NCBI RefSeq assembly: GCF_001636315.1 | Contig: NZ_KV440949.1 | Location: forward strand, 1,466,703 to 1,530,702 | DNA from: Neobacillus mesonae | GTDB lineage: Bacteria > Bacillota > Bacilli > Bacillales > Cytobacillaceae | DNA: 64,000 bases | Reading direction: 5' to 3' | Part shown: positions 1,088 through 63,542 of the stretch, one piece after another | Layout of the letters: each line of letters begins with the position of its first letter | How positions within the stretch are numbered: the stretch's first letter is position 1 | Position numbers and translations under genes: made by a program | The notes under the pieces: model-generated | Seen by the model: the letters and a program-made list of their open reading frames with translations, nothing else | What the model was told of the DNA's origin: nothing | Database searches by the model: none

Positions 1088-1503
1088 TGACCTTGCACTG
1101 CTTTTTTATGCTCGTCCGGGCACGTAGAACACTTCTAAATGACCTTATACTGCTATTTCATGCTCGTTCGGGCACGTAGAACACTTCTATGTGACCTGAC
1201 GCTGCTTTTTCATGCCTGTTCGGGCACGTAGACCGCTTCTATGTGACCTTGCGCTGATTGTTCATGCCTGTTCGGGCACGTAGACCCATTATACGTGACC
1301 TTACACCACTTTTTTATGCTCTTTCGGGCACGTAGAACCCTTATACGTGGCCTTACACCACTTTTTTATGCTCGTTTGGTCACGTAGAACCCTTCTACTT
1401 GACCTTGCGCTGCTTTTTCATGCCTGTTCGGTCACGTAGAACCCTTCTACGTGACCTTGCACTGCTTTTTTATGCTCGTTCCTGCACGTAGACACCTATA
1501 AAA
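1088..1503. repeat. array A: 8 tandem 52-bp hairpin units between smpB and rnr
   Basis: The marker TGACC (TGGCC in one copy) recurs at 1088, 1140, 1192, 1244, 1296, 1348, 1400 and 1452, an exact 52-bp period with no drift. Each unit joins a T-rich stretch ending in TGCTCGTT or TGCCTGTT to a dyad CACGTAGAA / TTCTACGTG. At 1430-1456 the dyad is perfect, with 12-bp arms around a CCC loop. Divergence is by point substitution only, not by length. It lies entirely outside the genes, 6 bp from the rnr stop codon. No recognised repeat family can be named from the sequence alone. Confidence 0.95.
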
Positions 1504-1509
1504 CTTAAT

Positions 1510-3849
1510 CTACCTCTTCTTTTTCCGTTTCGTGCTCTTAGACACTGGGACATTCTCATAAAATTTACGTTTCTTTTTTGGCTTTTTCCCTTCACCCGAG
1601 GCATTCGGCTTTTGATTATTGCCGCCTTCCTTGTTTTTCCGCGGTTTATGTGTTTCGCTGCCTGTTTTAAAAACCTTCGGTGTATCAGGACGTTCGCGGC
1701 GGCGTGTGCCTTTCATGCCGACAATCTCGAAATCAATGGAATGCTCTTCCTTATTTACTTTTACCACGCGGACGGTGATTTCATCGCCGATACGGAAGAC
1801 ATTCCCGGTGCGTTCGCCGATCATCGCGTAATGGCGCTCATCGAAACGGTAATAATCATCGGTCATATAGCTGACATGGACAAGGCCTTCAATCGTATTC
1901 GGCAGCTCGACAAACATCCCGAAGTTTGTTACCGAACTGATAATACCATCGTACTCTTCACCAATCTTATCCTCCATATACTCGGCCTTCTTCAATTCAT
2001 CGGTATCCCGCTCCGCATCTACTGCACGGCGTTCCATTTTTGAAGAATGCTCGGCAATGTCAGGCAGGTCGACATTCCATTTTTCCCGCGTTGCCTCATC
2101 CAGCTTGCCTTCAATGATGTAAGTCCGAATTAATCGGTGCACAATCGTATCTGGATAACGGCGGATTGGAGAAGTGAAGTGGGTATAGAACTGCGTCGAT
2201 AACCCAAAGTGCCCAATGCTTTCAGGATAGTACTTGGCCTGCTGCATCGAGCGCAGCATTACAGTGGAAACGACCATTTCCTCCGGTTTACCCTGCACCT
2301 CTTCAATAATTTCCTGCAAGGCCCTTGGGTGCACTTGATTGGCCGTCCCTTTTACGATATAGCCAAAGTTTGTAATAAACTCGAAAAACTTTCGCAGCTT
2401 ATCTTCTTTTGGATCTTCGTGAATTCGGTAAATGAACGGCACTTCCATCCAGTGGAAATGCTCCGCAACGGTTTCGTTGGCAGCTAGCATGAACTCTTCA
2501 ATCAGCCGCTCCGCCACTGAACGTTCACGTATAATGACATCAGTCGGCTTGCCTTCTTCGTCGACAAGTACTTTTGACTCTTTGAAATCAAAATCAATCG
2601 CACCGCGCGTCATCCGCTTATTACGAAGGATGGCTGCCAGTTCCTCCATTAATTCAAACATCGGCACCAGCGGCTCGTAGCGGGCTCTCGTTTCCTCATC
2701 CTTATCTATAAGGATTCTGTTCACATCGTGATAGGTCATCCGCTCGGTTGTTTTAATCACACTTTGAAAAATCTCATGGGAAACCACATGGCCCACTGAG
2801 TCGATTTCCATTTCGCACGATAACACAAGCCGGTCAACCTGTGGATTCAAGGAACAAATCCCATTCGACAGGCGATGTGGAATCATCGGAATAACGCGGT
2901 CAACTAAATAAACACTCGTCGCCCTGTCGGCTGCTTCAAGGTCAATCGGTGACCCTTCCTTTACATAATAGCTGACATCGGCAATATGAACGCCAAGCTT
3001 GTAATTGCCGTTCTCAAGCTTAGTCACCGTAACCGCATCGTCAAGGTCCTTCGCATCGGCCCCATCAATCGTGACAATCGTCTCACCGCGAAGATCACGC
3101 CGGTTCGTCAATTCACTTTCGTCGATGGTGTCAGGCACGGCATTCGCCTGCTGTAAAACCTCATCAGGAAAGGCCATTGGCAGCCCGTGCTTATGTATAA
3201 TTGAAAGGATATCAACACCGGGGTCGTTTTTGTGGCCAAGGATCGTGACTACTTCCCCTTCGGCACTTTTTCTTCCTTCAGGGTACGTGGTTAATTTAAC
3301 AACCACCTTATGCCCCTCAACCGCCCCTTTGGATGCCTCTTTCGGGATGAAGATATCACTAGCGAATTTTTTATCATCGGGAATCACAAAGCCAAAGTTT
3401 TTGCTTTCAACATAGGTGCCAACAATCTGCTGCACCCCCCGTTCAATAATTCGAATAACGCTCCCTTCACGGCGCTGTCCGGCGCTCTCTGAGGACACGC
3501 GGACTAATACCGTGTCCCCATGCATCGCGTTATTTGTTTCTGTCGGCGGGATAAAAATATCGTCCATACCAGGTTCATCAGGAACCACAAAGGCAAACCC
3601 TTTGGCATGGCCCGTCAGCTTTCCGCGTACAAGGTTCATTTTTTCCGGCAGTCCGTAACGATTAGCTCTAGTACGGACGACTAATCCTTTTTCCTCCATA
3701 TTAACGAGCGCTTTAACAAATTCCTTAAAGTCGCCCGAATCCTGTATGCCAAAGGCTTCCTCCAGTTCCTGAACAGTTAATGGTTTATAGGCCTCGTCCT
3801 TCATATATTGCAAAAGCCTGTTGATGTGCTTTTGAATGTTTTCTTCCAT
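1510..3849 (-). CDS. rnr: ribonuclease R (3'-5' exoribonuclease)
   Basis: A 779-residue RNase R, which degrades structured RNA and takes part in tmRNA-linked mRNA decay. Domains in order: N-terminal winged helix (about 1-70), two cold-shock/OB domains (about 72-210), the RNB catalytic domain (about 250-590) with the metal-binding aspartate cluster [10 protein letters not shown] at 262-271, an S1 domain (about 640-725), and a strongly basic tail rich in Lys and Arg. The length is usual for Firmicutes. It lies between the esterase gene (upstream) and smpB. The RBS is GAGGGATT before the ATG at 3849. Confidence 0.97.
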
Positions 3850-3873
3850 GGCAATCCCTCCTCAATCGGATTT

Positions 3874-4620
3874 CTAATCGTGCCAGTCCAGTTTTTCTAA
3901 AAAGGCGTACACATCCTCGTGCAGCTTGTCTCTTTCCCTGTCAAGCGTGATCACATGACCTGATTCTTCGTACCACTTGATTTCTTTTGTTGTTGATTCG
4001 ATTTCGTTATAGATGATATTAGCACTTTCAGGGTTGATCATATGGTCATGGCGGGCTTGAACCACAAAGGTTGGCGCATAAATCATGTCAATATTTTTCC
4101 GGACTTCTGAGATTAATCCTTGAAGTGCTTTTAACGTGTTCATCGGTGTTTTTTGAAACTCGTTCATTTCCAATTCGATTTGCTCGTCCGATTTTCCTTC
4201 TCGCTTTTTAAATTCCCGGGCATATTCGAGGACCCCTTCGTACATAACTTGTTCGCTTTTTATATACATCGGCGCACACATTGGCACAATTCCTTTTATA
4301 GGTACAGTGTATCCTAATTTTAAGGAAAATACGCCGCCTAAGGAAAGTCCTGCCACCGCAATTTCCTCGTGACCGTTATTTTTTAAAAAATTGTACCCGT
4401 TTAAGACGTCCTGCCACCACTCTTCAGGGCCAGTATGGACCAGCTCCTCCGGCGGCACACCATGTCCTTTATAATGCGGCGCATGGCAAGTATAGCCTCT
4501 TTTCTCAAGATAACGTCCCAGCATTCGCACATCAGATGAATTACCGGTAAAGCCATGCAGCAGGAGAACGGCCCTCTTCCCGCCTTGAAAGGTAAATGGT
4601 TTTGGTAATGTAATTTTCAT
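3874..4620 (-). CDS. carboxylesterase, Est30/YvaK type (alpha/beta hydrolase)
   Basis: A 248-residue serine hydrolase very similar to the Geobacillus Est30 carboxylesterase, which cleaves short acyl esters. Visible motifs are the oxyanion loop HGFTG (22-26), the nucleophile elbow GLSLGG with Ser93, a late Asp in QARHD and the catalytic His in SGHVI. The start at 4620 is chosen because an AAAGGAG site precedes it and the homologue begins MKI-PKPF here. The frame stays open 68 codons further upstream, but that stretch is encoded by the 21-bp repeat array and lacks an RBS. B. subtilis keeps this gene next to rnr and secG. Confidence 0.93.
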
Positions 4621-4746
4621 GTAAAAAACTCCTTTGATGCAAATATTGCTATTCTTTAGTTTAAGCAATGGTGTCGCTAACAATCCAGAAAAAAGGCTTG
4701 ATAGATGTGGAAGTGAGCTTTTTATCCGGGATATTCTTATATCGAT

Positions 4747-4990
4747 TCCGCGCAAGCTGGATCGTATTTCGCGAAGTTTTATGTTTATTTCGCGGGTTTC
4801 TGGATTTATTTCGCCGATTTTCACAATAATTTCGGGAACTTCTGCATTATTTTCGCCAATCTACCCTTTTTAGTTTAGATACCACCCAGATTTTAAGTTT
4901 ATTCCACCGATTTTGATGGTATTCCGCGGTTTTTCTGATTTATTCCACTGATTTTCACGTTTATTCCGCCAACTATAACCATATATTCCG
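4747..4990. repeat. array B: 21-bp tandem repeat between est and secG
   Basis: TTCG marks recur at 4768, 4789, 4810, 4831 and 4852, exactly 21 bp apart. The family then continues as ATTCC marks at 4901, 4921, 4942, 4963 and 4985 (20-22 bp). The plus-strand consensus is close to TTTATTTCGCCGATTTTCNNA. Read on the minus strand it gives a seven-residue periodic peptide (REI, GEI), which creates the spurious N-terminal extension of the esterase frame. The 4621-5051 gap holds only this array and the secG terminator. Confidence 0.9.
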
Positions 4991-5011
4991 TGAAACATTT
5001 TCAGGCAGACA

Positions 5012-5039
5012 CAAAAACCCGGCACAATGGCCGGGTTTC
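5012..5039 (-). terminator. intrinsic terminator of secG
   Basis: On the minus strand AAACCCGGC, loop CATTGT, GCCGGGTTT runs straight into a T-run. It sits 12 bp past the secG stop and ends the secG transcript before the 21-bp array. Confidence 0.88.
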
Positions 5040-5051
5040 GATCATTTCATA

Positions 5052-5285
5052 TTAAATTTTAAAGTAAGTAACGGCAAGTGCTAGTAAGATAAATAAAACG
5101 GCTAATACAACCGTAATTCGATGAAGAATCAAATCAATTCCCCGTGCTTTTTGCTTACCGAATAATGATTCTGCACCACCGGAAATGGCACCGGATAGTC
5201 CAGCGCTTTTGCCTGATTGAAGTAGTACAACTGCAATTAATCCGATACTTACAATTACTAATAATACGACTAAAAATGTATGCAT
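5052..5285 (-). CDS. secG: preprotein translocase subunit SecG
   Basis: A 77-residue membrane protein, the small stimulatory subunit of the SecYEG channel. Two hydrophobic segments (about 3-22 and 54-74) flank a Gly/Ser-rich loop with LFGKQKARG, typical of SecG. The start at 5285 follows a strong AGGAGGTGG site; an upstream in-frame ATG at 5333 has none. It is monocistronic here, with its own promoter and terminator. Confidence 0.95.
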
Positions 5286-5323
5286 GAAGGCCACCTCCTG
5301 TAGACACATAACACAGTACATTA

Positions 5324-5352
5324 AATTTACCATAAAAATTCCCGTTTCACAA
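5324..5352 (-). promoter_or_regulatory. candidate sigma-A promoter of secG
   Basis: On the minus strand TTGTGA (5347-5352) and TAAATT (5324-5329) are 17 bp apart, placing the start of transcription about 30 nt before the secG RBS. Confidence 0.5.
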
Positions 5353-5378
5353 TAGAATATTGCGACAACTTTTGGTAA

Positions 5379-6296
5379 TTATCTTGAAATAGAAGAGGCC
5401 ATTCTCACATATGTATGGCGTTTCCCTCTCACGACAACCGAATAGGCCATAATATTTTCCGGTATGGACATTCCCGATGCACCGGCGTCGCCAATGTGGA
5501 AGAGGTCTGCACCTGCCATTTTGCTGTTTAAGGCAATTTGCTTAATCGTTGCTTCGTCGGCACCTTCTTGGCTTGTTCCTGTTGTAAGGATCGCCAGTGC
5601 ACCCTTTTCATGAACGGCATCAACTAATTTTGCTGTTTTTTCAACAGTGAATCCTGGAACGGTTCCTGGAGAAGGAATGAGTATAATGTCAGCGCCTGCT
5701 TCGATAAACGAATGCAAGGTGTCAGTTGACATCAAGCTACCGCCTGCTTCACCGGCCACACCGGCACTATGCATTTTTCCAGCAATAATTAAACCATCTT
5801 CTCCAAAAACCTTACGGGCTACTTGAATCGCTTTGGTGATCGCCGTGTTGGATACACCTGTCTTTGGATTTCCTGTAAGACAGACAAAATCAAAGCCTAA
5901 TTCCTTCGCCTTCCGCAGCGACTTTTCCGTTGCCATCCGCCCCTCTGGCAACTCATGTAAAGTCTCCATTTGAACCGCATCCATATCTACAGGCTCCAAA
6001 TTCAACCCAATCGGCCTGCCGACAAGTTTTTTCAACTCTTTCACAATGGTGTCAGGCGCCGTTGTGGATAACCCCTCAAAATGTGGATTAAAGACATCAA
6101 AGAAGTTGAGCAGGATGAGGTCGGCGCCAAAGGCTGCGGCCATTTCGGCGTTGGTGACAGCTGGGTAGTACGGGGTGACGGCTCCGATGACTTCGGCGAC
6201 CATTGTCCGGCCCTCTGATGCTAGAATGGCCTGCTTAAGCTCTTTTCCCGACATTTTGGCAAAATCAGATGCAGTACAGTCTAATAGACGTTTCAT
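5379..6296 (-). CDS. TIM-barrel protein of uncertain function (DUF7916-like)
   Basis: A 305-residue protein that looks like a complete (beta/alpha)8 barrel: successive hydrophobic strands such as ADLILLNFFDV, FVCLTGNP, GLIIAGKMHSAG, ADIILIPSPGTVPG and LAILTTGT end in small or polar loops. I recall relatives being labelled PEP phosphonomutase or haloacid-dehalogenase-like, but the phosphonomutase active-site signature is not apparent, so I give no reaction. The repeated G-T-S/G-S-L loop style would suit a phosphate-bearing ligand (inference). A strong AAAGGAGG site precedes the ATG. It lies behind eno, but the eno terminator separates them. Confidence 0.8.
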   Translation of the reverse strand: MKRLLDCTASDFAKMSGKELKQAILASEGRTMVAEVIGAVTPYYPAVTNAEMAAAFGADLILLNFFDVFNPHFEGLSTTAPDTIVKELKKLVGRPIGLNLEPVDMDAVQMETLHELPEGRMATEKSLRKAKELGFDFVCLTGNPKTGVSNTAITKAIQVARKVFGEDGLIIAGKMHSAGVAGEAGGSLMSTDTLHSFIEAGADIILIPSPGTVPGFTVEKTAKLVDAVHEKGALAILTTGTSQEGADEATIKQIALNSKMAGADLFHIGDAGASGMSIPENIMAYSVVVRGKRHTYVRMASSISR

Positions 6297-6318
6297 GAAA
6301 CATTACCTCCTTTGTGAG

Positions 6319-6347
6319 AAAAGGCACCCACAAATCATGGATGCCTT
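6319..6347 (-). terminator. terminator of the glycolytic operon (after eno)
   Basis: On the minus strand AAGGCATCCA, a short loop, TGGGTGCCTT is followed by TTCTC. It lies 16 bp past the eno stop and should end the cggR-gap-pgk-tpiA-gpmI-eno transcript. Confidence 0.8.
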
Positions 6348-6362
6348 AACTTTAAAAAGTTA

Positions 6363-7673
<1,311 letters not shown>

Positions 7674-7708
7674 TTAAAAAAATTATTTATTTTTGCATCA
7701 ATACGAGT

Positions 7709-10055
<2,347 letters not shown>

Positions 10056-11508: not shown

Positions 11509-12531
<1,023 letters not shown>

Positions 12532-25987: not shown

Positions 25988-26575
25988 TTAAAGCATCCCT
26001 TTTGTCGATGGAACACCTTTGATGCGCGGGTCAATTGTTGTTGCTTCGTCGAGCGCGCGTCCCAGAGCTTTAAAAACTGCTTCGATCATATGGTGTGTGT
26101 TTTTTCCATAATGAACAATGACATGTAGATTCATCCTGGCTTCAAGTGCCAGTTTCCAGAGAAATTCGTGTACAAGCTCCGTATCGAAGGTGCCGACCTT
26201 TTGTGCAGGAAACTCGGCGCGCATTTCGAGATGCGGGCGGTTGCTAAGGTCTACAACAACCTGCGCCAGCGCTTCATCCATTGGAACAAATGCGTTCCCG
26301 TAACGCTTAATGCCCTTTTTGTCCCCTAACGCTTCACGAAGTGCCTGTCCTAAACAAATGCCTATATCTTCAGTTGTGTGGTGGCCATCCACTTCAACAT
26401 CGCCATTGGCATCTACTGTTAAGTTGAATTGGCCATGCTTGGTGAACAAATCGAGCATGTGAGTAAGGAATGGGACTCCGGTTTCGAGGGTTGATTGCCC
26501 TTCACCGTCTATATCTAATGCTAGCTTTATATTGGTTTCGTTTGTTTTGCGTTCTATACTTGCGATTCTTTCCAT
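25988..26575 (-). CDS. hisB: imidazoleglycerol-phosphate dehydratase
   Basis: A 195-residue monofunctional IGPD (no phosphatase domain). Mn-binding motifs [10 protein letters not shown] and KNTHHMIEA are intact. RBS AAAGGAGG. Unlike the downstream genes it is not coupled to its upstream neighbour: the 255-bp gap to hisD is filled by array C. Confidence 0.97.
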
Positions 26576-26621
26576 GAGGGTGAATACCTCCTTTGATTTC
26601 GAATATTATTTCGGGTTGTCT

Positions 26622-26829
26622 TTATTAAAGACACTTTTACCCGTTTTTCGATGTGTTTTGTCCTAAAGAAGCCTTATTAAAGACACTTTCACCTTTTTTC
26701 CAATGCGTTTTGTCTTTAAGAAGCCTTATTAAATACATTTTCACTAATTTTTGGATGCGTTTTGTCCTTAAGAAGCCCTATTTAAGACACTTTCACCTTT
26801 TTTCGATGCGTTTTGTCTTTAAGAACAAA
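26622..26829. repeat. array C: 4 tandem 52-bp hairpin units inside the his operon
   Basis: Units begin at 26622, 26674, 26726 and 26778 (marker ACAC/ACAT at 26631, 26683, 26735, 26787; exact 52-bp steps). Each has TTAAAGACA, a T-rich spacer with TTTTTTCGATGCG, and TGTCTTTAA, then AAGAAGCC. Between units this gives a hairpin TGTCTTTAA/TTAAAGACA with an inner AAG-C-CTT stem. The array touches the hisD stop codon and ends about 45 bp before the hisB start. The unit length equals that of array A though the stem sequence is different. Confidence 0.95.
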
Positions 26830-26830
26830 C

Positions 26831-28102
26831 TTAGTCGTTCTTAAGCCGCGATTCCACAGCTCGGGCGTGGGCTTCGAGTCCTTCCATGCGTGCAAACGCG
26901 GCAATTTTTTCGGCATTCTCCATAAAAGCCTTCTTGCTGTAAACAATCACACTAGATTTTTTTTGAAAATCATCAACATTTAGCGGGCTGGAGAACCTTG
27001 CTGTGCCGTTTGTCGGAAGTACGTGGTTCGGCCCGGCAAAATAATCGCCGACAGGCTCCGAGCTATAGCGGCCAATAAAAATCGCGCCGGCGTGGCGGAT
27101 TTTTCCCAGCAGCTCCATGGCATTGGCTGTGATCACCTCAAGATGCTCCGGTGCCAGCTGGTTCACAACCTCAACCGCCTCTTCCAAATCAGCGGTAACG
27201 TAAATGGCACCATAATCAGCAATCGAACGCTCTGCAATCTCTCGTCGTGGCAGCACGGTAAGCTGCTTTTCAACCTCCGCCGAAACTGCTTCCGCAAGCG
27301 CCATTGAAGGTGTGACCAATACACTGCAGGCCCTTGGATCGTGCTCCGCCTGCGACAGTAAATCAGCAGCAACCTCATCGGCCAAGGCCGTTTCATCTGC
27401 TAAAATGGCAATCTCACTTGGTCCGGCAATCATATCAATATCAACATCGCCATAAACCTCACGCTTAGCCAAAGCGACAAAAATATTTCCCGGACCGGTA
27501 ATTTTATCTACCGATGCAATCGATTCCGTTCCGTAAGCAAGCGCGGCAATTGCCTGGGCTCCGCCAACCTTATAAATCTTTTCCACACCTGCTTCCTTCG
27601 CTGCTACTAGCACAGCCGCAGGCATGCAGCCTTGACGGTCAGGAGGCGACACCATAACAATCCGCTTAACCCCTGCAACCTTTGCCGGCAACACATTCAT
27701 CAGCACGGATGATGGGTAGGCCGCTGTTCCGCCTGGTACATATACACCGACTGAATCTAAAGGGATAATTTTTTGCCCTAAAATCGTTCCGTTCTCTTCT
27801 GTTGTCATCCACGATGGACGGAGCTGTTTCTCATGAAAGGAGCGGATATTTGCCGCTGCTTCGCGCACAATCGCAACAAATTCTTCGGAAACTTTGCCAT
27901 ATGCTTCTTCGATTTCTTGTTCCGTTACTGAAAAAGAAGATAACTGTACCTGATCAAATTTTTCCGTCAGCTCTCGTATCGCCTCATCTCCACGGGTACG
28001 GACATCAGCAATAATCGTCTTCACGGCAGCCTGCTGTTCAGAAGTTCCGGCTTCCACCGAACGTTTTATTGAAATAAGATCATTCACTTTTAGTATTTTC
28101 AT
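26831..28102 (-). CDS. hisD: histidinol dehydrogenase
   Basis: A 423-residue NAD-dependent enzyme performing the last two steps to histidine. Signature region [13 protein letters not shown] and Zn/catalytic residues in QAEHDPRA and APEHLEV are present. The start at 28102 (MKILKVND) follows GGTGGG; 28132 is an unsupported longer option that would overlap hisG. It lies 16 nt after hisG. Confidence 0.96.
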
Positions 28103-28118
28103 TTTTAACCCACCCACC

Positions 28119-28742
28119 TTAAACAACTCCATAAAGCCGTGTGACTAACTCGTCAATTTGCTCGTCTTTAATTCGGTAACTGACTGGATTAACAATCAGC
28201 CGTGAGGTCACATCGACAATTCTTTCATATTCGACGAGTCCGTTTTCTCTCATCGTCCGGCCGGTTGAGACAATGTCGACAATACGGTCGGACAAACCGA
28301 TGATCGGGGCAAGTTCGATGGAGCCGTTTAATTTGATTATCTCCACCTGTTCGCCTTGTTCACGGAAATAGGCTTCGGCCACATTCGGGTACTTTGTTGC
28401 TACCCTTGGCGTTACATCATTCATTTTGGTATCTGGCAGCCCAGCAACCGCCAAATAGCAGTGGCTAATTTTTAAATCAAGCAATTCGTAAACATCGCGC
28501 TCTTCCTCTAATAAAACGTCTTTACCAGCAATGCCAACATCGGCGACGCCGTGCTCCACGTATGTGGCAACATCCATCGGCTTAGCTAAAATAAACCGCA
28601 AGTTCTCTTCTGGGACATCAATAATCAATTTCCGTGAATCGTCAAACTCCGGCGGCAGACTGTATCCCGCTTTCCGAAGCAATTCCACCGCTTCCTCAAA
28701 AATCCGCCCCTTTGGCATGGCCATAGTCAGAATCTCACTCAT
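28119..28742 (-). CDS. hisG: ATP phosphoribosyltransferase, short form
   Basis: A 207-residue HisG_S, the first step of the pathway. It lacks the C-terminal regulatory domain and needs HisZ, encoded just upstream. The motif [12 protein letters not shown] and the PRPP loop [16 protein letters not shown] are present. The start at 28742 ([12 protein letters not shown]) follows GAGGTG; the longer frame to 28775 overlaps hisZ and is not favoured. Confidence 0.96.
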
Positions 28743-30067: not shown

Positions 30068-30240
30068 TTCGCGGAGTTTGCATAAGATTTCGCTGTTTTC
30101 CGTAATTATTTCGCGGACTTTGGACGGAATTTCGCCGATTTCCTCATTTATTTCGCCGACTTCAACCAGAATTTCGCCGATTCCTCATTTATATCGCAAA
30201 CCCTACACAAGATTTCCACTGACTTCCACATATATCCGCC
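30068..30240. repeat. array D: 21-bp tandem repeat upstream of hisZ
   Basis: TTCG marks at 30068, 30089, 30110, 30131, 30152 and 30173 are exactly 21 bp apart, then degenerate copies at about 30193, 30214 and 30234. The consensus matches arrays B and E (TTTATTTCGCCGATTTNNNCA). It fills the 29935-30297 gap between the acyltransferase terminator and the his promoter. Confidence 0.92.
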
Positions 30241-36237: not shown

Positions 36238-36356
36238 CTCGTCCCACCATCCTCTATCTATATGTACGATTTGTGAAGATGAAAGTTTCGTGTTTTTTTA
36301 CAACGACTGGAAAATTACATGCTTGTCCTATTTGTGAGGTGGGTGTTGATGGGGAT

Positions 36357-36530
36357 TTCGCGGACCTCTTAATTTATTTCGCGGATTTGTGCATTTATTT
36401 CGCGAACTTTCGCAATTATTTCGCCGGTTTCCGCATTTATTTCGCTGACTTTCGCATTTATTTCGCCGTTTTTCAAAAGTTTTCGCTGAACGCATTCGAT
36501 TTCGCGGGTTTTGCCGATAATTTCGCCAAA
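36357..36530. repeat. array E: 21-bp tandem repeat downstream of uvrA
   Basis: TTCG marks at 36357, 36378, 36399, 36420, 36441, 36462, 36482, 36501 and 36522: six exact 21-bp steps among nine units, others 19-21. The consensus TTTATTTCGCNGATTTTCGCA equals arrays B and D. The 36238-36591 gap contains only this array and the uvrA terminator. Confidence 0.93.
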
Positions 36531-48218: not shown

Positions 48219-48540
48219 GGGGAGAATCAGGTGCTGTTATTGACCGTTTGGAGCTTTGGATGGAGAGGAGCGGGCAGAATCGATACTCGATTTTTACCTT
48301 TTAGGCCCTCGGGTGGGCGGTGGCGGGCAGAATCAACCCTTTATTTTTAACATTTGCTCCTCTTGAGGGTATCTTCGGGCAAAATCATGCCTGGTTTTTG
48401 ACCGTTAAGACTCTTGGGTGGCGGTACCGGCAAAATCAACGCTTTATTTTTACCGTTGCACCATCTTTTTCAACCTACGCGGGCAATTGAACTCACCTAT
48501 TTTTACAAATAACGCCACCCAACACACACCCAATGGGCGA
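48219..48540. repeat. array F: about 52-bp tandem repeat between chrA and cydS
   Basis: GGGCA-type marks at 48219, 48272, 48325, 48377, 48428 and 48481, then 48535: steps 53, 53, 52, 51, 53, 54. The unit is G-rich (GGGCAGAATCAA) followed by TTTATTTTTACC. Some units have a small dyad (CAACG/CGTTG near 48437-48460), but no constant hairpin. Within the 48102-48545 gap I see no gene. Confidence 0.82.
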
Positions 48541-55565: not shown

Positions 55566-55572
55566 TTCCTAA

Positions 55573-55684: not shown

Positions 55685-56428
55685 TTGAATCCAACTATTT
55701 CAGTAGAGAAAGTGAACAAAAGCTATGGAAAAAGGTCTGTTTTAAACGATGTAAACTTGACAATTGAACTAGGACAATTATATGGCTTAATCGGTCCTTC
55801 CGGTGCCGGAAAAACGACTTTGGTCAAAATGATTGTTGGCATGGAAAAGGCAGACAGCGGGACAATTCAGGTGCTTGATGAAAAAATGCCGAATCTCGCC
55901 ATCCTCCAGGAAATCGGCTATATGGCGCAATCCGATGCTCTTTATTTGGAGCTGACCGGTGAGGAGAATCTAAAGTTTTTTGCCTCCCTTTTTAAATTAA
56001 ATAAAGAGGAGCAGCGTAAACGAATTGCTTATGCCGCAGGTTTAGTTAACTTAACCGCCGATTTAAAGAAACGAGTTGCCGCCTATTCCGGGGGCATGAA
56101 AAGGCGCCTTTCGCTCGCCATTGCCTTGATTCAAGACCCTAAGCTATTAATCTTGGATGAACCAACCGTTGGGATTGATCCAGAGTTAAAATTGTCGATA
56201 TGGAGTGAGCTTTTGCGCCTCAAAAATGAAGAGGGCAAAACGATTATCGTTACCACCCATGTCATGGACGAGGCTGAAAGATGCGATGTTGTCGCGATGG
56301 TACGGGATGGACGAATAATAGCAAGTGGTACTCCCGATGAGTTAAAAGACTTGTATCATGTTGGAAGCTTGGATGAAGTATTTTTAAAAGCGGGAGTGAA
56401 GCAGCATGAGAATCTCGGCGTTAATTAA
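55685..56428 (+). CDS. ABC-2 type exporter, ATP-binding protein
   Basis: A 247-residue ATPase. Walker A GPSGAGKTT (about 38-46), signature YSGGMKRRLSLA, Walker B LLILDEPTVGIDP and switch His in TTHVMDEA. Start codon TTG at 55685 after AGGAGGAATTGCC. Overlaps the permease gene by 23 nt. Substrate unknown; a drug or lipid-like compound is usual for TetR-linked pairs. Confidence 0.94.
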   Translation: MNPTISVEKVNKSYGKRSVLNDVNLTIELGQLYGLIGPSGAGKTTLVKMIVGMEKADSGTIQVLDEKMPNLAILQEIGYMAQSDALYLELTGEENLKFFASLFKLNKEEQRKRIAYAAGLVNLTADLKKRVAAYSGGMKRRLSLAIALIQDPKLLILDEPTVGIDPELKLSIWSELLRLKNEEGKTIIVTTHVMDEAERCDVVAMVRDGRIIASGTPDELKDLYHVGSLDEVFLKAGVKQHENLGVN

Positions 56429-57467
56429 ACGAATCCTTCGGCAATTGCTGCGAGATAAGCGAACCCTGGCGTTAATGTTTGTCGCACCATTATTGATTCT
56501 GACCTTGATGTACTTTTTATTTAATGGCAATACCGTTGATCCGAAATTGGGAGTAGTGGGGATTGAAGAGCAGCTTGTGGATGGCTTTAAAAAAGCGGAT
56601 ATTCAGGTAATAAATTTGGAGAAGGCCAAGCATGATTCGGTGATTGATCAAGATCTGGACGGTTTGCTCCAGCCAGATCCTGATTCCGGAAAAATGATTT
56701 TAACGCTGCGTAACGATGACACAAGTAAGGCAAAGGCTTTGCAAATGAAGGTGAATCAAGTATCTGCGGCGCAAATGCAAAAAAAATTAATCCAGCAGAA
56801 TCCGACAGCGGCTGGGATGGCAGCGGAACAGATTGACACAAAATACGTTTACGGTAATAAAAACACCGTCTTTTTTGATGTGCTAAGTCCAATATTAGTT
56901 GGCTACTTTGTCTTCTTTTTCGTCTTTATTATTTCGGGAATTGGGCTTTTGCGTGAGCGGACAACTGGAACGTTGGAGCGGCTGATGTCAACACCAATCC
57001 GCAGATGGGAAATCGTCACCGCTTATTTGACCGGCTACGGAATCTTCGCTGTCATTCAGACGGTGATCGTCGTACTTTATGCCATTAATGTACTAGACAT
57101 CGTCTTGGCTGGCTCGATTTTTCATGTTATCCTGATAAACCTGCTGTTGGCGCTAGTTGCCCTTTCTTTAGGAATTTTATTATCGTCGTTTGCCGCTTCG
57201 GAATTTCAAATGATACAATTTATACCGGTTGTCGTAATTCCGCAAGTATTTTTCGCTGGGATTTTTCCGCTGGACGGAATGGCTGACTGGCTTCAGGGGA
57301 TTGCCAAAATAATGCCGATGTATTATGCGGGCGATGCTTTAAAATCAGTTATGTATAAAGGCATGAGGCTAAGTGACATTAGCACTGATCTGATCGCCTT
57401 GGTAATCTTTGCTGTGATCTTTATCCTATTAAATATCTTTGCATTAAAGAAATACAGGACACTATAA
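56406..57467 (+). CDS. ABC-2 type exporter, permease
   Basis: A 353-residue ABC-2 permease: one N-terminal helix (about 18-40), a soluble domain of about 140 residues, then five helices from about 165 with the signature LRERTTGTLERLMSTPIRRWEIVTAYL. Works with the preceding ATPase. A terminator follows at 57480. Confidence 0.93.
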   Translation: MRISALIKRILRQLLRDKRTLALMFVAPLLILTLMYFLFNGNTVDPKLGVVGIEEQLVDGFKKADIQVINLEKAKHDSVIDQDLDGLLQPDPDSGKMILTLRNDDTSKAKALQMKVNQVSAAQMQKKLIQQNPTAAGMAAEQIDTKYVYGNKNTVFFDVLSPILVGYFVFFFVFIISGIGLLRERTTGTLERLMSTPIRRWEIVTAYLTGYGIFAVIQTVIVVLYAINVLDIVLAGSIFHVILINLLLALVALSLGILLSSFAASEFQMIQFIPVVVIPQVFFAGIFPLDGMADWLQGIAKIMPMYYAGDALKSVMYKGMRLSDISTDLIALVIFAVIFILLNIFALKKYRTL

Positions 57468-57479
57468 ACGAAGTTATAA

Positions 57480-57504
57480 AAGACTCCCATCACGGGAGTC
57501 TTAT
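57480..57504 (+). terminator. terminator of the ABC exporter operon
   Basis: AAGACTCCC, ATCAC, GGGAGTCTT, then ATTGAT; strong stem, poor T-run. May act for the convergent small gene as well. Confidence 0.65.
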
Positions 57505-57536
57505 TGATGTATCCAAATTAAGTATAAACGGAACTT

Positions 57537-57746
57537 CTACTCATTCTCTCGATTCTCGGCACGGTCCATTGATCCATCGGCGCCTTCGCCCGCCTTATTG
57601 CCAAGTGCACCGCCAGCAATGGCCCCCGCAACAGTGCCAAGCGGGCCCAAAACAGAGCCTACTGCAGCACCAGCAGCAGCACCGGCACCAGTGCCCAGTG
57701 CTTCACCAGCATCGATATCATCGCGATTTCGTTTGTTGTCAGCCAA
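57537..57746 (-). CDS. small glycine-zipper protein
   Basis: A 69-residue protein: charged N-terminus (NKRNRDD), a Gly/Ala-rich hydrophobic centre with repeating GxxxG spacing (GTGAGAAAGAAVGSVLGP; GAIAGGALG), and an acidic C-terminus ending RAENRENE. Such proteins insert in or bind to membranes; function unknown. Start codon TTG at 57746 after AGGGGGTG. Confidence 0.8.
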   Translation of the reverse strand: MADNKRNRDDIDAGEALGTGAGAAAGAAVGSVLGPLGTVAGAIAGGALGNKAGEGADGSMDRAENRENE

Positions 57747-57872
57747 TTATTTCACCCCCTAGTTTGGGATGTGCTGCTATTTTCTTTCACATCCCTAAGA
57801 AATAGGTTGCTCAATATATTGTTTTTCATTACAAACAAAACCGGGCAGCTTATTCATTCATAGCCCTTTTGT

Positions 57873-58535
57873 CTAAAAAATATCTTTCAAAGCAAGGTCC
57901 ACAGAATGAGACTTGAGGAAGAACCTAGAATAGTTCGGGTTCTCACTTGCTTCCTTTGTAAGGACCGCATGTAAAATAATATCAGCATAAATATCAGCAA
58001 TCTCCGGAATCGTGTAACGCCCATTGGTTTTATACCACTTACAAATCCAGTTAACCGCGCCGAAAATAGCCATCGAAATAATTGGTATTGGCAGTTCTTC
58101 TCGGAACTCACCGCAATCGATTCCATCCTGAATGACCCTGAACATTAAATCTTTATATTGGTCCCTCTTCACCTTAATTTCCGTAAAATATTCAGGAGCA
58201 AGATAGGAATATTCCTGGTAGAATACAGTAACTTGAGATTTATAAAGATCAAGCACCATAACAAAGGATTTGATAATTCCATGCAGCCTCTCTGTTGGCG
58301 TATTCCATTGCTTATATGCTTTCTTTCCTTCTTCTAATATGTAGGAAATAAATTGATCATGAATCACATAAAGAAGCTCATCCTTTGACTTGAAATTATG
58401 ATAAAATCCTCCCTTAGAAGTATTGCTTTCTTTTACAATCTGATCAACCGTTACCTTGTGGTAGCCCCGAGCTTCAAACAAACGGAGCGATGTCTCAATA
58501 ATACGTTCTCTTAATGATGATGATTTGTCAGCCAT
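57873..58535 (-). CDS. TetR family regulator
   Basis: A 220-residue repressor. HTH at about 10-55: HKVTVDQIVKESNTSKGGFYHNFKSKDELLY; alpha-helical ligand domain behind. RBS AGGGTGA. No obvious target next to it; the GH20 gene is divergent, and the small glycine-zipper gene follows. Confidence 0.92.
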   Translation of the reverse strand: MADKSSSLRERIIETSLRLFEARGYHKVTVDQIVKESNTSKGGFYHNFKSKDELLYVIHDQFISYILEEGKKAYKQWNTPTERLHGIIKSFVMVLDLYKSQVTVFYQEYSYLAPEYFTEIKVKRDQYKDLMFRVIQDGIDCGEFREELPIPIISMAIFGAVNWICKWYKTNGRYTIPEIADIYADIILHAVLTKEASENPNYSRFFLKSHSVDLALKDIF

Positions 58536-58775
58536 ATAATATTCACCCTATTATATTTTAGCACCACTTTCTGAAAAGTGGTAATATTCTTCAACGCAGA
58601 AATTTCTTAATTAGACCAAAATAAAAAACAAAAGAAGCCAATGCTTCTCAAAAAATCTGCGCACAGCCTTTGAAACCCTTGGTTAAGCTGGGAGAGCTCC
58701 TCCTTCTTCGTTTAACTTGACGGAATATTCTGTAAAACAGTGCTTTTAGCTCATTAATTTTCATTTGATTAAAGG

Positions 58776-58781
58776 TATACT
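58776..58781 (+). promoter_or_regulatory. possible -10 box of the GH20 leader
   Basis: TATACT at 58776-58781; no good -35 (ATTAAT at 17 bp). Transcription from here would start just before the antiterminator at 58803. Confidence 0.35.
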
Positions 58782-58802
58782 AGTTCTGATTGGTTCATAT
58801 GT

Positions 58803-58836
58803 ATCACATGTTACTGTTGCGAACAGGCATGGTGGT
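58803..58836 (+). promoter_or_regulatory. ribonucleic antiterminator (RAT) of LicT/SacY/BglG type
   Basis: TGTTACTG (58809-58816), 7 nt, CAGGCA (58824-58829): the conserved core of LicT-family RATs (TTGTTACTG...CAGGCAA). The structure fits as well: upper stem CTGTT/AACAG with loop GCG, internal loop TTA/GCA, lower stem CACATG/CATGGTG with one bulge. Its 3' half overlaps the first arm of the terminator at 58826, so the two folds exclude each other. A phosphorylation-controlled BglG-type protein, not encoded here, would bind it. Confidence 0.78.
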
Positions 58837-58892
58837 AAGTAAAAGGAATTCACAACCTTTTATTTCCCCATGCCTTTTTATTTTTTATGAAA
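58826..58892 (+). terminator. leader terminator before the GH20 gene
   Basis: GGCATGG-TGGTAAG-TAAAAGG (58826-58846) pairs with CCTTTTATTTCCCCATGCC (to about 58874), followed by TTTTTATTTTTT. It lies about 140 nt before the coding start and would block transcription unless the RAT forms. Confidence 0.85.
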
Positions 58893-59028
58893 AGGAGGAG
58901 AAAGAGTTTCAACGTTTTACTGCTGTGATAATTGTCTTATCATTATTTGAAAAAGGGAGGAGAGAATTTGAATTGATAATTTATGATTCTTTCCTTTCTA
59001 AGAAATCATTTAAGAGGAGGATATCGTT

Positions 59029-62000
59029 TTGAAAAGTTTGTCACGAAGTTTATTTGGAAGATCGATTAGTGTGCTGCTTACTATTCTATTAATTCTACCA
59101 TCGTTTTTGACAGGACTATCGCTGGAAGCTAAAGCAGTCACGGAGCCAATCTACACTGCATCAGGATCTGAAACCGCAGCATTTGGTCCGGAAAAAGCTT
59201 TTGACGGACATTATAATCGGTTTACGAATAAGGATTCCAGATGGGCTAGCACAGTAGGATTGGCCTCAAAGGAAAATCCTAAATGGCTTCAAGTTGAGTA
59301 TCCCGAAGCAAAAACAATTCAAGGATTTAAAATCCATTGGGAAAGAAAAAATGTAAATACATACTCCATCCAGGTGTCCAATGATGGTGTAAACTTTAAA
59401 AATGTGTATCACTCTACGGAAAGTAAAAATCAATGGATAGAAACCATTAAGCTGGCTAATGCCGAAACAGCTAAAATAGTAAGATTAGTCATCACAGATT
59501 TTGTATCTAATTCCCCTAATGTAGAAAAAGATGTGGATTGGGCTGCTGTCTCCGTGTATGAGTTTGAAGTTTTAGAAAGCTTAAATTCAGTTGTGGCCGA
59601 AACCGGTAATGCTGCGGTTGGGAAAACCGCGTCTGCTTCAAATACAGAAGCGGGAACAAACTTTGTCCCCGGTAATACTGTAGATGGAGACTGGAATACA
59701 CGTTGGTCCACCGATAAAGGTAACAATGTTCCAAGAACGTTGACAATTGATCTCGAAGCCCTAACGCAAGTTCAGTCAGTCATAATTAACTGGGAACGAA
59801 CAAATATTATTGCCTTTAACATGACCTATTCAGAGGATGGAACGCAATATTTTCCATTCTATCGTCAGACACAAAAGTCTGACATTCAACGCCAAATACT
59901 AAACATTCCAAGCCCTGTGAATGCCAGATATTTAAAACTAGAAATCACCCAATATGATGGCGGCACAATAAACTGGCAGAATGTTGGCATTAATGAAGTG
60001 GAAGTGTACTCCACCAAAAATAATGAAGCACCGGCAGAAATCACTTCACTAGAACAAATCACCTCCCTAACGGTAAATGAAGAAAAAGGAAAACTCAACA
60101 TTCCAAAAGCGGCAAATGGAGAAATTGCTGTTGTGGGAAGCAACGCTTTACCTGTCATTAGCTTAGAAGGAAATGTAGTTACTCCATTAACAGATAAAAC
60201 TGTTAAAGTAACCCTGAAGTTAACAAAAAAAGATAAAAGTACCGAGTCAAAGGAATTTAATGTTTCTGTAGACGGAACTTATAAAGATGAGGGGAAAAAT
60301 GAAAAACCAATCGTCATCCCTGCCCTTCAAGAATGGTATGGTTTGGAGGGAACAAAAACAGTTGATGATTCAACTGCATTAGTGGTAAAGGATCCTGCTT
60401 TCCAAAAGGCTGCTAAAATTCTCCAACAGGATTTAAACGATCTAGAGGGACTTAATCTTTCGATTGGGGCAAAAGACACCAATGCGATTATTTTTAAAAA
60501 GGATGCAGCAGGTGTTTACGGTAAAGAAGGCTATGGGATTGAAATTCAGAATAACAATATTGTCGTGACAGCGGAAGAGTATACGGGGGCTTTCTATGCA
60601 ACCAGGACCCTGCACCAACTTTTGAAGCAAAGCGATTCGAATGCAATTTCAAATGGGTTAATTCGCGATTATCCGAAGTATAAACTCCGCGGGTTCATGT
60701 TGGATGTCGGCCGTAAATTTACTGATCTTGATTATCTATATGATTATGTAAAGAACATGAGCTACTATAAATTGAATGACTTCCAAATTCATTTAAATGA
60801 CAATGAATTAGAAATGCATTTATATGACACGATTGAAGATGCCATTAAAAATGCTTATGCCGGATTCAGATTGGAGTCCAGCATAGTTGGAGAAAATGGG
60901 GTTCCATTAACATCTCAAGATGGTTATTATACGAAGCGGGAATTTAATCAATTCATTTCGGATGCCGAGAATTATGGAGTGGATATTGTCCCAGAGTTTG
61001 ATACACCGGGACATGCCTTATCTATGGTTAAGGTAAGGCCCGATCTTTACTATAAGGGTCAAATTGTAAACGGCAAACAACCTGAAGAAGCAGCAGCAAT
61101 GCTTGATTTATCACATCCGGATACATTGCCGTTTATTAAATCCATATATAATGAGTACTTGGATGGTGAAAATCCAGTATTTAAAAACGCTCCTATCCAT
61201 ATTGGAAGTGATGAGTATTATGGAGGTGCAGAAGCATATCGTGCATATGTCGATAATATGTTGAAATTCGTTCGTGACGAAAAGCAACGAACTGTACGCC
61301 TGTGGGGAAGCCTTTCGAATAAAAGCGGCTCTGCACCAGTTACGTCTAAAGATGTACAATTGCAGGTTTGGAATACAGGGTGGGCTAATCCTCAACAAAT
61401 GCTCAATCAAGGATTTAATATCATTAATATTGATGACGGCCAAGTTTATATGGTGCCGAGAGCGGGTTACTATAGAGATCGCTTAAATCCGCAAACCATT
61501 TACAATAGCTATCAGCCAAATAAGTTTTCTAATGGGACAGTTGTCAATGAATCGAACCCGCAATTTTTAGGTGGTATGTTCGCTTTATGGAATGACAAGG
61601 TTGGAAAACTTGAAAACGGAATTACTCCCTATGACATGTTTGACCGTGTGTTTGAGGCAATTCCTGCAATTGCTCAAAAGAATTGGGGAAGCGATACGAC
61701 ACATGTTCCTTACACAAAGTTCAATGAGGCAGCGAAGAAGACAGGGTTTGCTCCAAATACGAATCCAAAATTTGATGTGAAGACAGTTGGTTCAACTGTT
61801 ATCGATTATGATTTTACTAAAGGTGACAAGGACAATAGTAAAAATGGCTATGACATTGTAGAAAAAGTTAATGCAAGTTTACCAGCTGAACTAGGCCTTC
61901 AATTAAATACCGGAAAGAGCTATGCACAAACGGGTTTAACCAATCTAGGACCTAATGCTGTTATGAATGTCACCCTGACATTAAAGGATACGAACGGTCC

Positions 62001-63024
62001 ACAAATATTGGCAGAAGAGAGCCATGCTGGAACGAATAAAACCAATGCAACCATTTATGCCGTAAATAAAGATGGCTATGTAGGTTACGATTATGCAAAC
62101 CGATCCTATTCCTTCGATTACAAGTTAGTTAGTGGTAAAAGAACAACGCTCACATTTGTAACAGAATTTGAGAAAACTAGATTATTTGTGAATGGTGAAG
62201 AAATACCACTAACAACCGAAACAAGTATGCCTTACAATACGCTGGTATTACCGCTTGAAAGAATTGGCAGTGCAACTGATTCTGTTCGTGGTATCATTTC
62301 TTCCTTTCATGTAGAAAAAGGAAAATTTGTAGACCCAACAAGAATTGACACTAAAACAATGAAAATTACCGCCACAAGTGAAGAAACATCCCAGGGGGAC
62401 ACGAATGTTGAAGGGCCGATTAAGCTTGCGTTTGATGGAAATGTAAACACGTTTTGGCACTCCAAGTGGAGCAAAAATCCGCCGCTCCCTTATGAAGTAA
62501 ACATAGAGCTCGCTGAAAAAACTAAACTTGGCAAATTTGTCTATACTCCTAGACAAAGCGGCGACAACGGACGCATATTAAAATATCGTCTACAGGTCAG
62601 TACTGACGGGGAAACCTATGAAGAAGCGGCTTCTGGTACTTGGAGCAGCAATCCGTCCGTTCGAACCATTAATTTGAATGGGGTTAAAACACAATTTGTC
62701 CGACTTATTATTGAAGATGGCGTTGGCGGATTTGCAAGTGCGGCTGAATTCTCATTGCATTCTAAGGTCCAAGCCCCGCAAGTGACGATAGACGGCTTAG
62801 ATGAAGAACTAAAAATAGCCTTTAATCTAGGGCTGATCACCAACAAAGGCATTCTTAACAGCCTGCTCGCCAAGGTTGACCAGCTTCAAAAAGCTTCTGG
62901 AGACGAAAAACAATTCCAAAACGGATTGACAGCCCTGGTAAACGAAATTCAGGCTCAATCTGGCAAGCATCTTGACAAAAACTACGCTGCCCTATTGCTC
63001 GAGATCATTGCTGAATTAAAGTGA
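59029..63024 (+). CDS. secreted multidomain GH20 beta-N-acetylhexosaminidase
   Basis: A 1331-residue exported protein. Signal peptide about 1-35 (LLTILLILPSFLTGLSLEAKA). Two F5/8-type C (CBM32) modules at about 40-185 and 190-330, an Ig-like segment (about 340-425), GH20 N-terminal domain (about 430-545), GH20 barrel (about 550-900; RGFMLDVGRKF at 554, catalytic HIGSDE with Asp728-Glu729), a LamG-like module (about 920-1105), a third CBM32 (about 1112-1245) and a C-terminal FIMAH-like module (about 1255-1331). No LPXTG anchor. It would cut terminal GlcNAc/GalNAc from glycans. Start codon TTG after AAGAGGAGG. Confidence 0.93.
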   Translation: MKSLSRSLFGRSISVLLTILLILPSFLTGLSLEAKAVTEPIYTASGSETAAFGPEKAFDGHYNRFTNKDSRWASTVGLASKENPKWLQVEYPEAKTIQGFKIHWERKNVNTYSIQVSNDGVNFKNVYHSTESKNQWIETIKLANAETAKIVRLVITDFVSNSPNVEKDVDWAAVSVYEFEVLESLNSVVAETGNAAVGKTASASNTEAGTNFVPGNTVDGDWNTRWSTDKGNNVPRTLTIDLEALTQVQSVIINWERTNIIAFNMTYSEDGTQYFPFYRQTQKSDIQRQILNIPSPVNARYLKLEITQYDGGTINWQNVGINEVEVYSTKNNEAPAEITSLEQITSLTVNEEKGKLNIPKAANGEIAVVGSNALPVISLEGNVVTPLTDKTVKVTLKLTKKDKSTESKEFNVSVDGTYKDEGKNEKPIVIPALQEWYGLEGTKTVDDSTALVVKDPAFQKAAKILQQDLNDLEGLNLSIGAKDTNAIIFKKDAAGVYGKEGYGIEIQNNNIVVTAEEYTGAFYATRTLHQLLKQSDSNAISNGLIRDYPKYKLRGFMLDVGRKFTDLDYLYDYVKNMSYYKLNDFQIHLNDNELEMHLYDTIEDAIKNAYAGFRLESSIVGENGVPLTSQDGYYTKREFNQFISDAENYGVDIVPEFDTPGHALSMVKVRPDLYYKGQIVNGKQPEEAAAMLDLSHPDTLPFIKSIYNEYLDGENPVFKNAPIHIGSDEYYGGAEAYRAYVDNMLKFVRDEKQRTVRLWGSLSNKSGSAPVTSKDVQLQVWNTGWANPQQMLNQGFNIINIDDGQVYMVPRAGYYRDRLNPQTIYNSYQPNKFSNGTVVNESNPQFLGGMFALWNDKVGKLENGITPYDMFDRVFEAIPAIAQKNWGSDTTHVPYTKFNEAAKKTGFAPNTNPKFDVKTVGSTVIDYDFTKGDKDNSKNGYDIVEKVNASLPAELGLQLNTGKSYAQTGLTNLGPNAVMNVTLTLKDTNGPQILAEESHAGTNKTNATIYAVNKDGYVGYDYANRSYSFDYKLVSGKRTTLTFVTEFEKTRLFVNGEEIPLTTETSMPYNTLVLPLERIGSATDSVRGIISSFHVEKGKFVDPTRIDTKTMKITATSEETSQGDTNVEGPIKLAFDGNVNTFWHSKWSKNPPLPYEVNIELAEKTKLGKFVYTPRQSGDNGRILKYRLQVSTDGETYEEAASGTWSSNPSVRTINLNGVKTQFVRLIIEDGVGGFASAAEFSLHSKVQAPQVTIDGLDEELKIAFNLGLITNKGILNSLLAKVDQLQKASGDEKQFQNGLTALVNEIQAQSGKHLDKNYAALLLEIIAELK

Positions 63025-63047
63025 TGGTGGAGAGCGTTCATAGAACC

Positions 63048-63175
63048 GTCAAAAAGTATGATTGAAAGACATTTTTTATGATTTCTGGGGCGGATGTGTC
63101 CTTCATCGCGATTATGAAGGACACTCCGCCCAAACTTTAAGATGGATTAGTCCTTCATCGGGGGAATGAAGGACA
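63048..63175. repeat. array G: 52-bp hairpin repeat behind the GH20 gene
   Basis: GTCCTTCAT at 63098 and 63150, exactly 52 bp apart, each pairing with ATGAAGGAC across a 7-nt loop (25-nt hairpins). A decayed third copy starts near 63048 (GTCAAAAAG...). Unit length and hairpin size equal arrays A and C. Confidence 0.85.
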
Positions 63176-63323
63176 TTACTTTTAGTACCTGCTAAAGATT
63201 ATATCCAATTTGCATTTTCATATTTATTAAAAAAAGCAGCACACTAGATATAACCTGTTATACTTCTTGTTCTAAAGGCTTTAGTATTTTTATTGGGGAA
63301 TTAATGATCATAATTACTGACAA

Positions 63324-63353
63324 AAAAAACAGCGAGAGAATTACTTCTCTCGC
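63324..63353 (-). terminator. terminator downstream of minJ
   Basis: GCGAGAGAA, TTAC loop, TTCTCTCGC; on the minus strand it is followed by TGTTTTTTTT. It should end minJ transcripts, and may also stop GH20 transcripts from the other side. Confidence 0.82.
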
Positions 63354-63437
63354 ATAATATTATTTAGACCCCATTCAAACATGAAAAACACTTTCATTGA
63401 ATGATGGAATGGTTCAAGAAAATTTTTTAAAATTTTG

Positions 63438-63542
63438 TTCCGTTTATTTATGAACGTTTTCCGTTAAATTATGAAAAATAAATTCGGACTTTTTTGGTAG
63501 AAATCCAGGATTTATTGAACGAAATCCGCTCTTTTTTGGTGT
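63438..63542. repeat. array H: 21-bp tandem repeat between GH20 and minJ
   Basis: TTCCG marks at 63438 and 63459 and AAATCC-type marks at 63480, 63501 and 63522, 21 bp apart with one 3-bp shift; CTTTTTTGGT recurs at 63489 and 63531 (42 bp). Related in period but diverged in sequence from arrays B, D and E. Outside arrays G and H and the terminator, I see nothing in 63025-63553. Confidence 0.8.

Follow-up and report, generated by a model that had tools for sequence, protein, structure and literature searches.

Tandem repeats of constant unit size (52 and 20-21 nucleotides, nt) and variable sequence were described in Bacillus by Subirana and Messeguer in 2021 (PMC8161180). Neobacillus appears in their table, as B. 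mesonae, with 95 tandem repeats, 88.4% of them of 52 nt, at a search setting of at least four repeats per array; B. subtilis 168 is listed there with no 52-nt repeat. The repeats are called enigmatic there, with no sequence conservation reported and function not known; nucleoid proteins and small RNAs are discussed, and short signals and their reverse are noted within one repeat. Its text does not contain the words leading, orientation or palindrom. For B. coagulans, a further report states that the 52-nt repeats are transcribed, as seen by RNA sequencing (PMC8625621). The two-size tandem repeat phenomenon is thus already published. Here we analyse eight arrays of 52- or 21-base-pair (bp) units in one stretch of Neobacillus mesonae DNA (assembly GCF_001636315.1, contig NZ_KV440949.1, here C1, positions 1466703-1530702; 64,000 nt, hereafter the window), together with their counterparts across the genome and in related genomes.

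The present analysis adds the shared hairpin design and the replication polarity of the 52-bp class. In our literature search, we recognised no report that these repeats are oriented with replication or follow one hairpin model; most subscription journals lay outside the search, and absence from print is therefore not claimed. The genome measures 5.81 Mb and was sampled by 60 evenly placed 20-kb stretches which, together with the window, make up 1.264 Mb (1.2 Mb plus the window). Based on the RNase R encoded in the window, Neobacillus kokaensis is the closest named relative among the matches listed, with 95% identity.

The 52-bp units share one hairpin plan

The 52-bp units are mostly variants of one hairpin plan, not unrelated sequences with a shared period, and the arrays make up one satellite repeat family, which belongs to the constant-size class already published for Bacillus. 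In each unit, an imperfect hairpin (10-bp stem, 7-nt loop) is combined with a 21-nt linker that is often A-rich. The order within the unit is an A-rich segment, GGTC or TGTC, stem, a loop often carrying AGGG or AGG, stem, GCCC or GAC, and again an A-rich segment. Of the 32 sampled 52-bp arrays, 28 align to this plan nearly gap-free. Because most units vary on this one plan, part of the constant 52-bp period can be attributed to common descent.

To assess the pairing, the 28 arrays were placed in leading-strand orientation, with each unit rotated to its own best hairpin (alignment A1). Arrays 1907549, 2431573, 3654797 and 3880888 were omitted due to an ambiguous hairpin register, and array 5241637 was placed against the leading strand. 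Over 10 positions with i + j = 36, 85.4% of the cells are paired compared with 49.3% after shuffling, and both sides are changed in 108 of 280 cells. The covariation score reaches 0.889, with 0.232 for shuffled alignments and at most 0.176 for slid registers. The stems therefore differ between arrays through compensated changes. A1 is biased toward pairing by the choice of each unit's own best hairpin as register, and a second alignment (A2) was fitted to the model; it contains 24 matches from nine relatives' loci, every one on the rnr strand, and is paired in 91.4% of cells compared with 61.7% (21 distinct rows).

A rotation- and strand-free alignment by expectation-maximisation (EM) of 31 consensus units scored 526.5, compared with at most 305.0 in 15 shuffles, and the same procedure on the relatives gave 353.2 compared with at most 256.0 in 10 shuffles. 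As the EM score makes no use of pairing, it backs the shared plan independently. When tested against its own shuffles, a hairpin was found at p < 0.05 in 22 of the 32 consensus units. Within arrays, the 3' and 5' stem arms vary less (0.053 and 0.106) than the loop (0.147) and the linker (0.142), and double compensated changes number 13 compared with 4.9 expected.

The shared plan allows the repeats to be found and compared with a single covariance model of the hairpin unit, R1. At an expectation value (E) of 0.01, 55 of the 81 family genomes have R1 matches and 26 have none. Solitary units are rare, since 43 sampled stretches free of 52-bp arrays (860 kb) gave no R1 match at E ≤ 0.1 and three at E 0.44-0.91, which also shows that R1 is specific in this genome.

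Most 52-bp arrays are oriented with replication

Judged from GC skew, the origin of C1 lies near 2.64 Mb and its terminus near 5.216 Mb. By AT skew, the A-rich strand is the leading strand in 31 of the 32 sampled arrays, and strand-free EM on array profiles likewise gives 31 of 32. The sole sampled exception, 5241637, sits about 25 kb past the skew change. A sequence-specific check that does not rest on base content is provided by the motif CATTGCCCRAAA, which occurs at 62 places, 61 of them in agreement with replication, on both arms. Furthermore, 39 of 43 R1 clusters across the genome agree with replication (150 of 2048 candidates were scored), including 26 of 30 clusters outside the training set (p = 6e-5 against one half). 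Arrays that oppose replication do occur and look genuine. Within the left arm, one stretch (L155, C1 2570001-2590000) shows a GC skew with the sign of the other arm and may represent a local inversion or island.

That flanking genes do not account for this polarity is supported most strongly by the gap context: in gaps with lagging genes and in convergent or divergent gaps, all 12 arrays point with replication, including 4 of 4 in gaps where both genes are lagging and 4 of 4 in divergent gaps. Orientation by local transcription is thus unsupported for the 52-bp class. Bulk skew was rejected as the cause of the array skew: the leading-strand AT skew is 0.008 in array-free gaps versus 0.273 in arrays. 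Replication polarity narrows the range of mechanisms, as neither local gene expression alone nor symmetric protein binding predicts it.

In hand tallies among the matches listed, clusters agree with replication in G001 (18/20), G036 (21/21), G086 (15/15) and G056 (8/8), so that polarity holds in four of the five further genomes for which skew was measured; the skew sign changes within the intervals holding G086 2463255, G036 4485846 and G001 3283190. Genomes G002, G003, G004, G006, G008 and G063 had no skew sample and were left out of the tally, and G005 and G007 have no R1 matches. Polarity is common, not universal.

In the genome sample outside the 52-bp arrays, some octamers lie strongly on the leading strand, for instance GAAGGGGA (61 vs 3) and GAGAAGGG (35 vs 8), and may represent the translocase-orienting signal of this species. 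The latter is what we take to be the SpoIIIE signal of B. subtilis (SpoIIIE recognition sequence, SRS).

Two size classes across the genome and its relatives

The initial annotation had proposed two strict size classes, possibly as part of a chromosome-wide system. In the genome sample, 98 arrays of period at least 10 were found, 31 at 52, one at 53, 29 at 21 and three at 20 bp, so that 64 of the 98 fall at 52-53 or 20-21. When the count is limited to the 64 arrays of 2.5 or more copies, 52 show a period of 52-53 or 21/42. Summed autocorrelation over 418 gaps is strongest at lags 52 (z 16.6), 104 (14.9) and 21 (5.6) and weak at 42 (2.7), which bears out the chromosome-wide occurrence. A broad spread of periods, which had been named as the outcome that would speak against two classes, was not observed. 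Coding sequence shows a weak peak at lag 21 (2.4) and none at 52; as 52 is also not a multiple of 3, coding repeats were rejected as the source of the 52-bp class. In the loci around rnr of 80 relatives, 25 of 85 arrays have a period of 51-52 and 36 of 20-21.

The copy-to-copy steps in 27 arrays of the 52-bp class measure 52 in 207 of 225 cases, 51 in 11, 53 in six and 50 in one, and "strict" is a fair, though not absolute, description of the period. A further stretch (L135, 8613-9810) contains about five copies of a 246-bp tandem repeat; this length is divisible by 3, and the repeat may belong to a gene for a repetitive surface protein.

The eight arrays of the window

The following arrays of the window were examined by autocorrelation against 500 dinucleotide shuffles (lowest attainable p = 0.002) and by Tandem Repeats Finder (TRF, score at least 40):

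1080..1500, minus strand (the leading strand here): 52-bp array of about 8 copies (7.9) in the rnr-smpB gap, genes by Pfam; best R1 match 44.1 bits
4747..4990, minus strand: 21-bp array in the gap between secG and an alpha/beta-hydrolase gene
26622..26825, minus strand: 52-bp array of about 4 copies (3.9 by TRF) in the gap between the genes for histidinol dehydrogenase and imidazoleglycerol-phosphate dehydratase; R1 matches
30068..30240, minus strand: 21-bp array, with lag 42 the stronger
36357..36530, minus strand: 21-bp array downstream of a uvrA-like gene, the most regular of the window's 21-bp arrays
48219..48540, minus strand: degenerate 52/53-bp array of about 6 copies; the strand is taken from a single weak R1 match (48356-48407, E 0.69)
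63048..63175, no strand assigned: short array of degenerate 52-bp units in a convergent gap, containing two clear inverted repeats
63438..63542, no strand assigned: degenerate 21-bp array, the weakest of the eight

All eight arrays reported in the initial annotation are significant at the claimed period (p = 0.002 each). When the maximum over all lags is taken, p remains 0.002 for seven and is 0.014 for 63438-63542. The match at 52 amounts to 0.82 for 1088-1503, 0.72 for 26622-26829 and 0.54 for 63048-63175; 48219-48540, which lies between a chromate transporter gene and a cytochrome bd subunit gene, reaches 0.43 with a tie between lags 52 and 53. At lag 21, the match is 0.51 for 4747-4990, 0.60 for 36357-36530 and 0.55 for 63438-63542, while 30068-30240 reaches 0.47 and a higher value at lag 42 (0.60). 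TRF recovers five of the eight arrays at this score; its rows do not include 48219-48540, 63048-63175 and 63438-63542, which are degenerate.

Several features of the published class are found here: unit lengths of 51-53 or 20-21 nt, noncoding location and a sequence that varies between arrays. At the published setting of at least four repeats, the copy numbers are 7.9 (1080-1500), 5.3 (36355-36474, by TRF) and 3.9 by TRF (26622-26825), and the remaining window arrays are shorter or too degenerate. The location outside genes, as first described, agrees with the gene calls, apart from one low-scoring 56-amino-acid open reading frame (ORF; score 23) within 36357-36530, which we take as spurious. 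An alternative longer start of ORF 3874-4824 would reach into the edge of array 4747-4990.

The 52-bp array within 25988-28132 separates two genes of an apparent histidine operon; it is therefore probably transcribed and tolerated inside the operon. On the minus strand, a terminator-like hairpin (1018-1042) follows the rnr-smpB array, and a similar one lies in the gap of two relatives' loci (L009, L013). Terminator-like sites in the scan were no more numerous than in shuffles. An Rfam scan of the window returned tmRNA and tRNA only and no family for the arrays, with zero matches at 1000-1560 at E up to 1.

The 21-bp arrays form a separate AT-rich family

The 21-bp arrays belong to a family of their own, rich in AT, in which no hairpin was seen, though none was searched for. 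Units of the sampled genome have an AT-rich core in common, with the EM consensus TTTTCGCnGATTT (strand as found); the relatives give TTGGCGGATAAA, and the scores exceed those of shuffles (243.8 vs at most 183.8, and 277.8 vs at most 213.7). The arrays point one way in 21 of 29 cases and, in a second run, in 20 of 27, with shuffled units reaching 14-21; polarity of this class is therefore not established. One 21-bp pattern occurs at 41 forward places and one reverse place, all but two on one arm.

The 21-bp arrays are placed as if promoter-bearing gaps were avoided: none of the 31 sampled rows of this class outside genes falls in a divergent gap, where 131 of 624 gaps of at least 80 bp are divergent. 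Two further sampled rows fall inside genes. In one stretch (L094), two 21-bp arrays less than 300 bases apart (6430-6586 and 6882-7023) have different units, one with GGCGGATA on the plus strand and the other with ATTTCGC. By eye, the 21-bp core may resemble DnaA boxes.

Differences in copy number and uniformity of 52-bp arrays

The rnr-smpB gaps of N. kokaensis and of a further relative's locus (L011) contain about 1.5 units with the same stem and in the same register as the array of about 8 copies in the window, which indicates that the copy number at a given site changes in whole-unit steps. L011 additionally carries a second array with a different stem and the same sense, indicating that new stems arise beside old ones. 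Across the loci of 80 relatives, TRF detected 51-52-bp arrays in this gap in seven.

Arrays opposed to replication are less uniform than co-oriented ones (p = 0.005, 31 vs 5 arrays; p = 0.023, 30 vs 6) and hold fewer copies in the 31 vs 5 comparison (p = 0.022). The stretches added for the 30 vs 6 comparison were partly picked for known arrays and exceptions, and 30:6 is therefore not an unbiased rate of co-oriented to opposed arrays.

Possible mechanisms

We tentatively favour fork-coupled, orientation-dependent amplification of a structure-constrained 52-bp unit, at a probability of roughly 0.3. According to this model, copies would be gained as the unit, in single-stranded form, folds at the replication fork; the purine-rich strand would have the sequence of the lagging-strand template, and wrongly oriented arrays would gain or homogenise copies less well and decay. 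Stems drift through compensated changes and become uniform within an array, so that the sequence varies and plan and length persist. The fixed linker length might reflect a constraint of the folded intermediate or of a protein bound to the folded unit; no protein partner emerged from the analysis. Fork-coupled gain is favoured because it accounts for polarity, growth by whole units, conservation of structure over sequence, and the decay of opposed arrays.

Several observations weigh against this model. The length of 52 bases itself is left unaccounted for, and so is G019, where 7 of 12 assignable clusters agree with replication among the matches listed, which amounts to zero polarity (cluster 2813792 was excluded, as the skew is near zero there). 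In a second EM run on consensus units, 29 of 31 agree with replication, and shuffled units still orient 25-29 of 31, so that much of the EM polarity is base content. The held-out R1 clusters are not significantly above a rate of 78% (p = 0.18), which is close to the share of called genes that are leading-strand (74.6%), and the lower copy number of opposed arrays is not significant in the 30 vs 6 comparison (p = 0.126). The two strands fold about equally (mean z of -3.14 and -3.21 as RNA, -2.88 and -2.78 as DNA), with the leading strand slightly more stable (p = 0.04), and G.T pairs in the stem (71) do not significantly exceed A.C (55). The active strand is therefore not singled out.

A broader and rather unlikely possibility is that the satellites are chromosome-wide replication-polar elements, whose hairpin, conserved in structure and variable in sequence, would be recognised on a single strand, either at the fork or behind it. 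The putative host machine that recognises it would make use of the arrays and would also propagate them in 52-bp steps. Another explanation, to which we assign a low probability, is that the arrays are polar functional elements read from origin to terminus by a translocase, segregation or repair factor, with wrong orientation selected against. The polarity on both arms, independent of genes, the constant unit length, and the many genera of the family among the genomes with R1 would fit such an element. The candidate signal GAGAAGGG, however, is present in only 1 of 252 units, by which arrays of SpoIIIE/SRS signals were rejected; stem and loop sequences vary between arrays, and neither the absence of polarity in G019 nor the genomes lacking R1 is expected of it. 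Similarly unlikely is a role of the hairpins as RNA in 3' ends, operons or small RNAs. The compensated stems, the reported transcription in B. coagulans, the terminator-like hairpin that the rnr-smpB array precedes and the array between two his genes all speak for it, but the arrays point with replication even in lagging and divergent gaps, tolerance of G.U is not significant, and no Rfam family was matched in the window.

The initial annotation had suggested selection for protein-binding phasing or for RNA structure, as 21 and 52 are near two and five helical turns; the replication polarity was not noted there. Of this, a structural constraint on the 52-bp class finds support and the helical phasing does not: neighbouring arrays in one gap share the 52-bp register in only one of four pairs (884 = 17 x 52, while 747, 509 and 327 are not multiples of 52), which is weak evidence against phasing rather than a refutation. 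A protein that polymerises on double-stranded repeats at helical spacing, along the lines of Subirana and Messeguer, would account for the tightly held lengths, and the inverted repeats would fit dimeric proteins. We consider it improbable, since a symmetric site does not predict replication polarity and the stem is maintained by pairing, not by sequence. Least probable is the mobilisation of elements resembling repetitive extragenic palindromes (REPs) by a Y1 transposase (RAYT/IS200 type) acting on the template of the lagging strand. It would account for the polarity, the hairpins and the variable sequence, and the genome contains three Y1_Tnp matches (L169, L170, L171), two of them without internal stops and one with, not linked to the arrays in this analysis. 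R1 matches, however, occur in 6 of 14 genomes free of PF01797 (among them G011 with 30, G010 with 10 and G076 with 8; several of these genomes are in many contigs) versus 49 of 67 with it. The association between R1 and PF01797 is weak at best, and a requirement for Y1/RAYT mobilisation is unsupported. The lack of R1 matches at E ≤ 0.1 in the 860 kb without 52-bp arrays also speaks against this explanation.

Comparison with known systems

Like the repeats of Subirana and Messeguer, those described here have the same two unit lengths, are intergenic, form many arrays per genome and vary in sequence between arrays. In contrast to that account, a single covariance model captures most of the 52-bp units here, and these are oriented with replication. 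The arrays also share partly palindromic repeats in direct tandem with clustered regularly interspaced short palindromic repeats (CRISPR); unlike these, the entire 52-bp unit repeats in the window arrays and unique spacers are absent.

REP elements and bacterial interspersed mosaic elements (BIMEs), which are associated with RAYT transposases, are intergenic hairpin repeats that occur in tandem. The 52-bp arrays resemble them in being intergenic tandem hairpin repeats, and differ in that dependence on a Y1 gene is not seen and the 52-bp unit is repeated in direct tandem.

SRS and FtsK-orienting polar sequences (KOPS), the signals of SpoIIIE and FtsK, run along the leading strand in the origin-to-terminus direction. 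This orientation is shared by the 52-bp arrays, which are nevertheless hairpin arrays of variable sequence with SRS in just the one unit. Integron attC sites are hairpins conserved in structure and variable in sequence, with a preferred orientation to replication. The 52-bp arrays are alike in all three respects; unlike attC sites, no gene cassettes lie between the units (integrases were not searched for). The polar satellite system considered above as a broader possibility would be of a kind with KOPS or attC sites, yet distinct from both.

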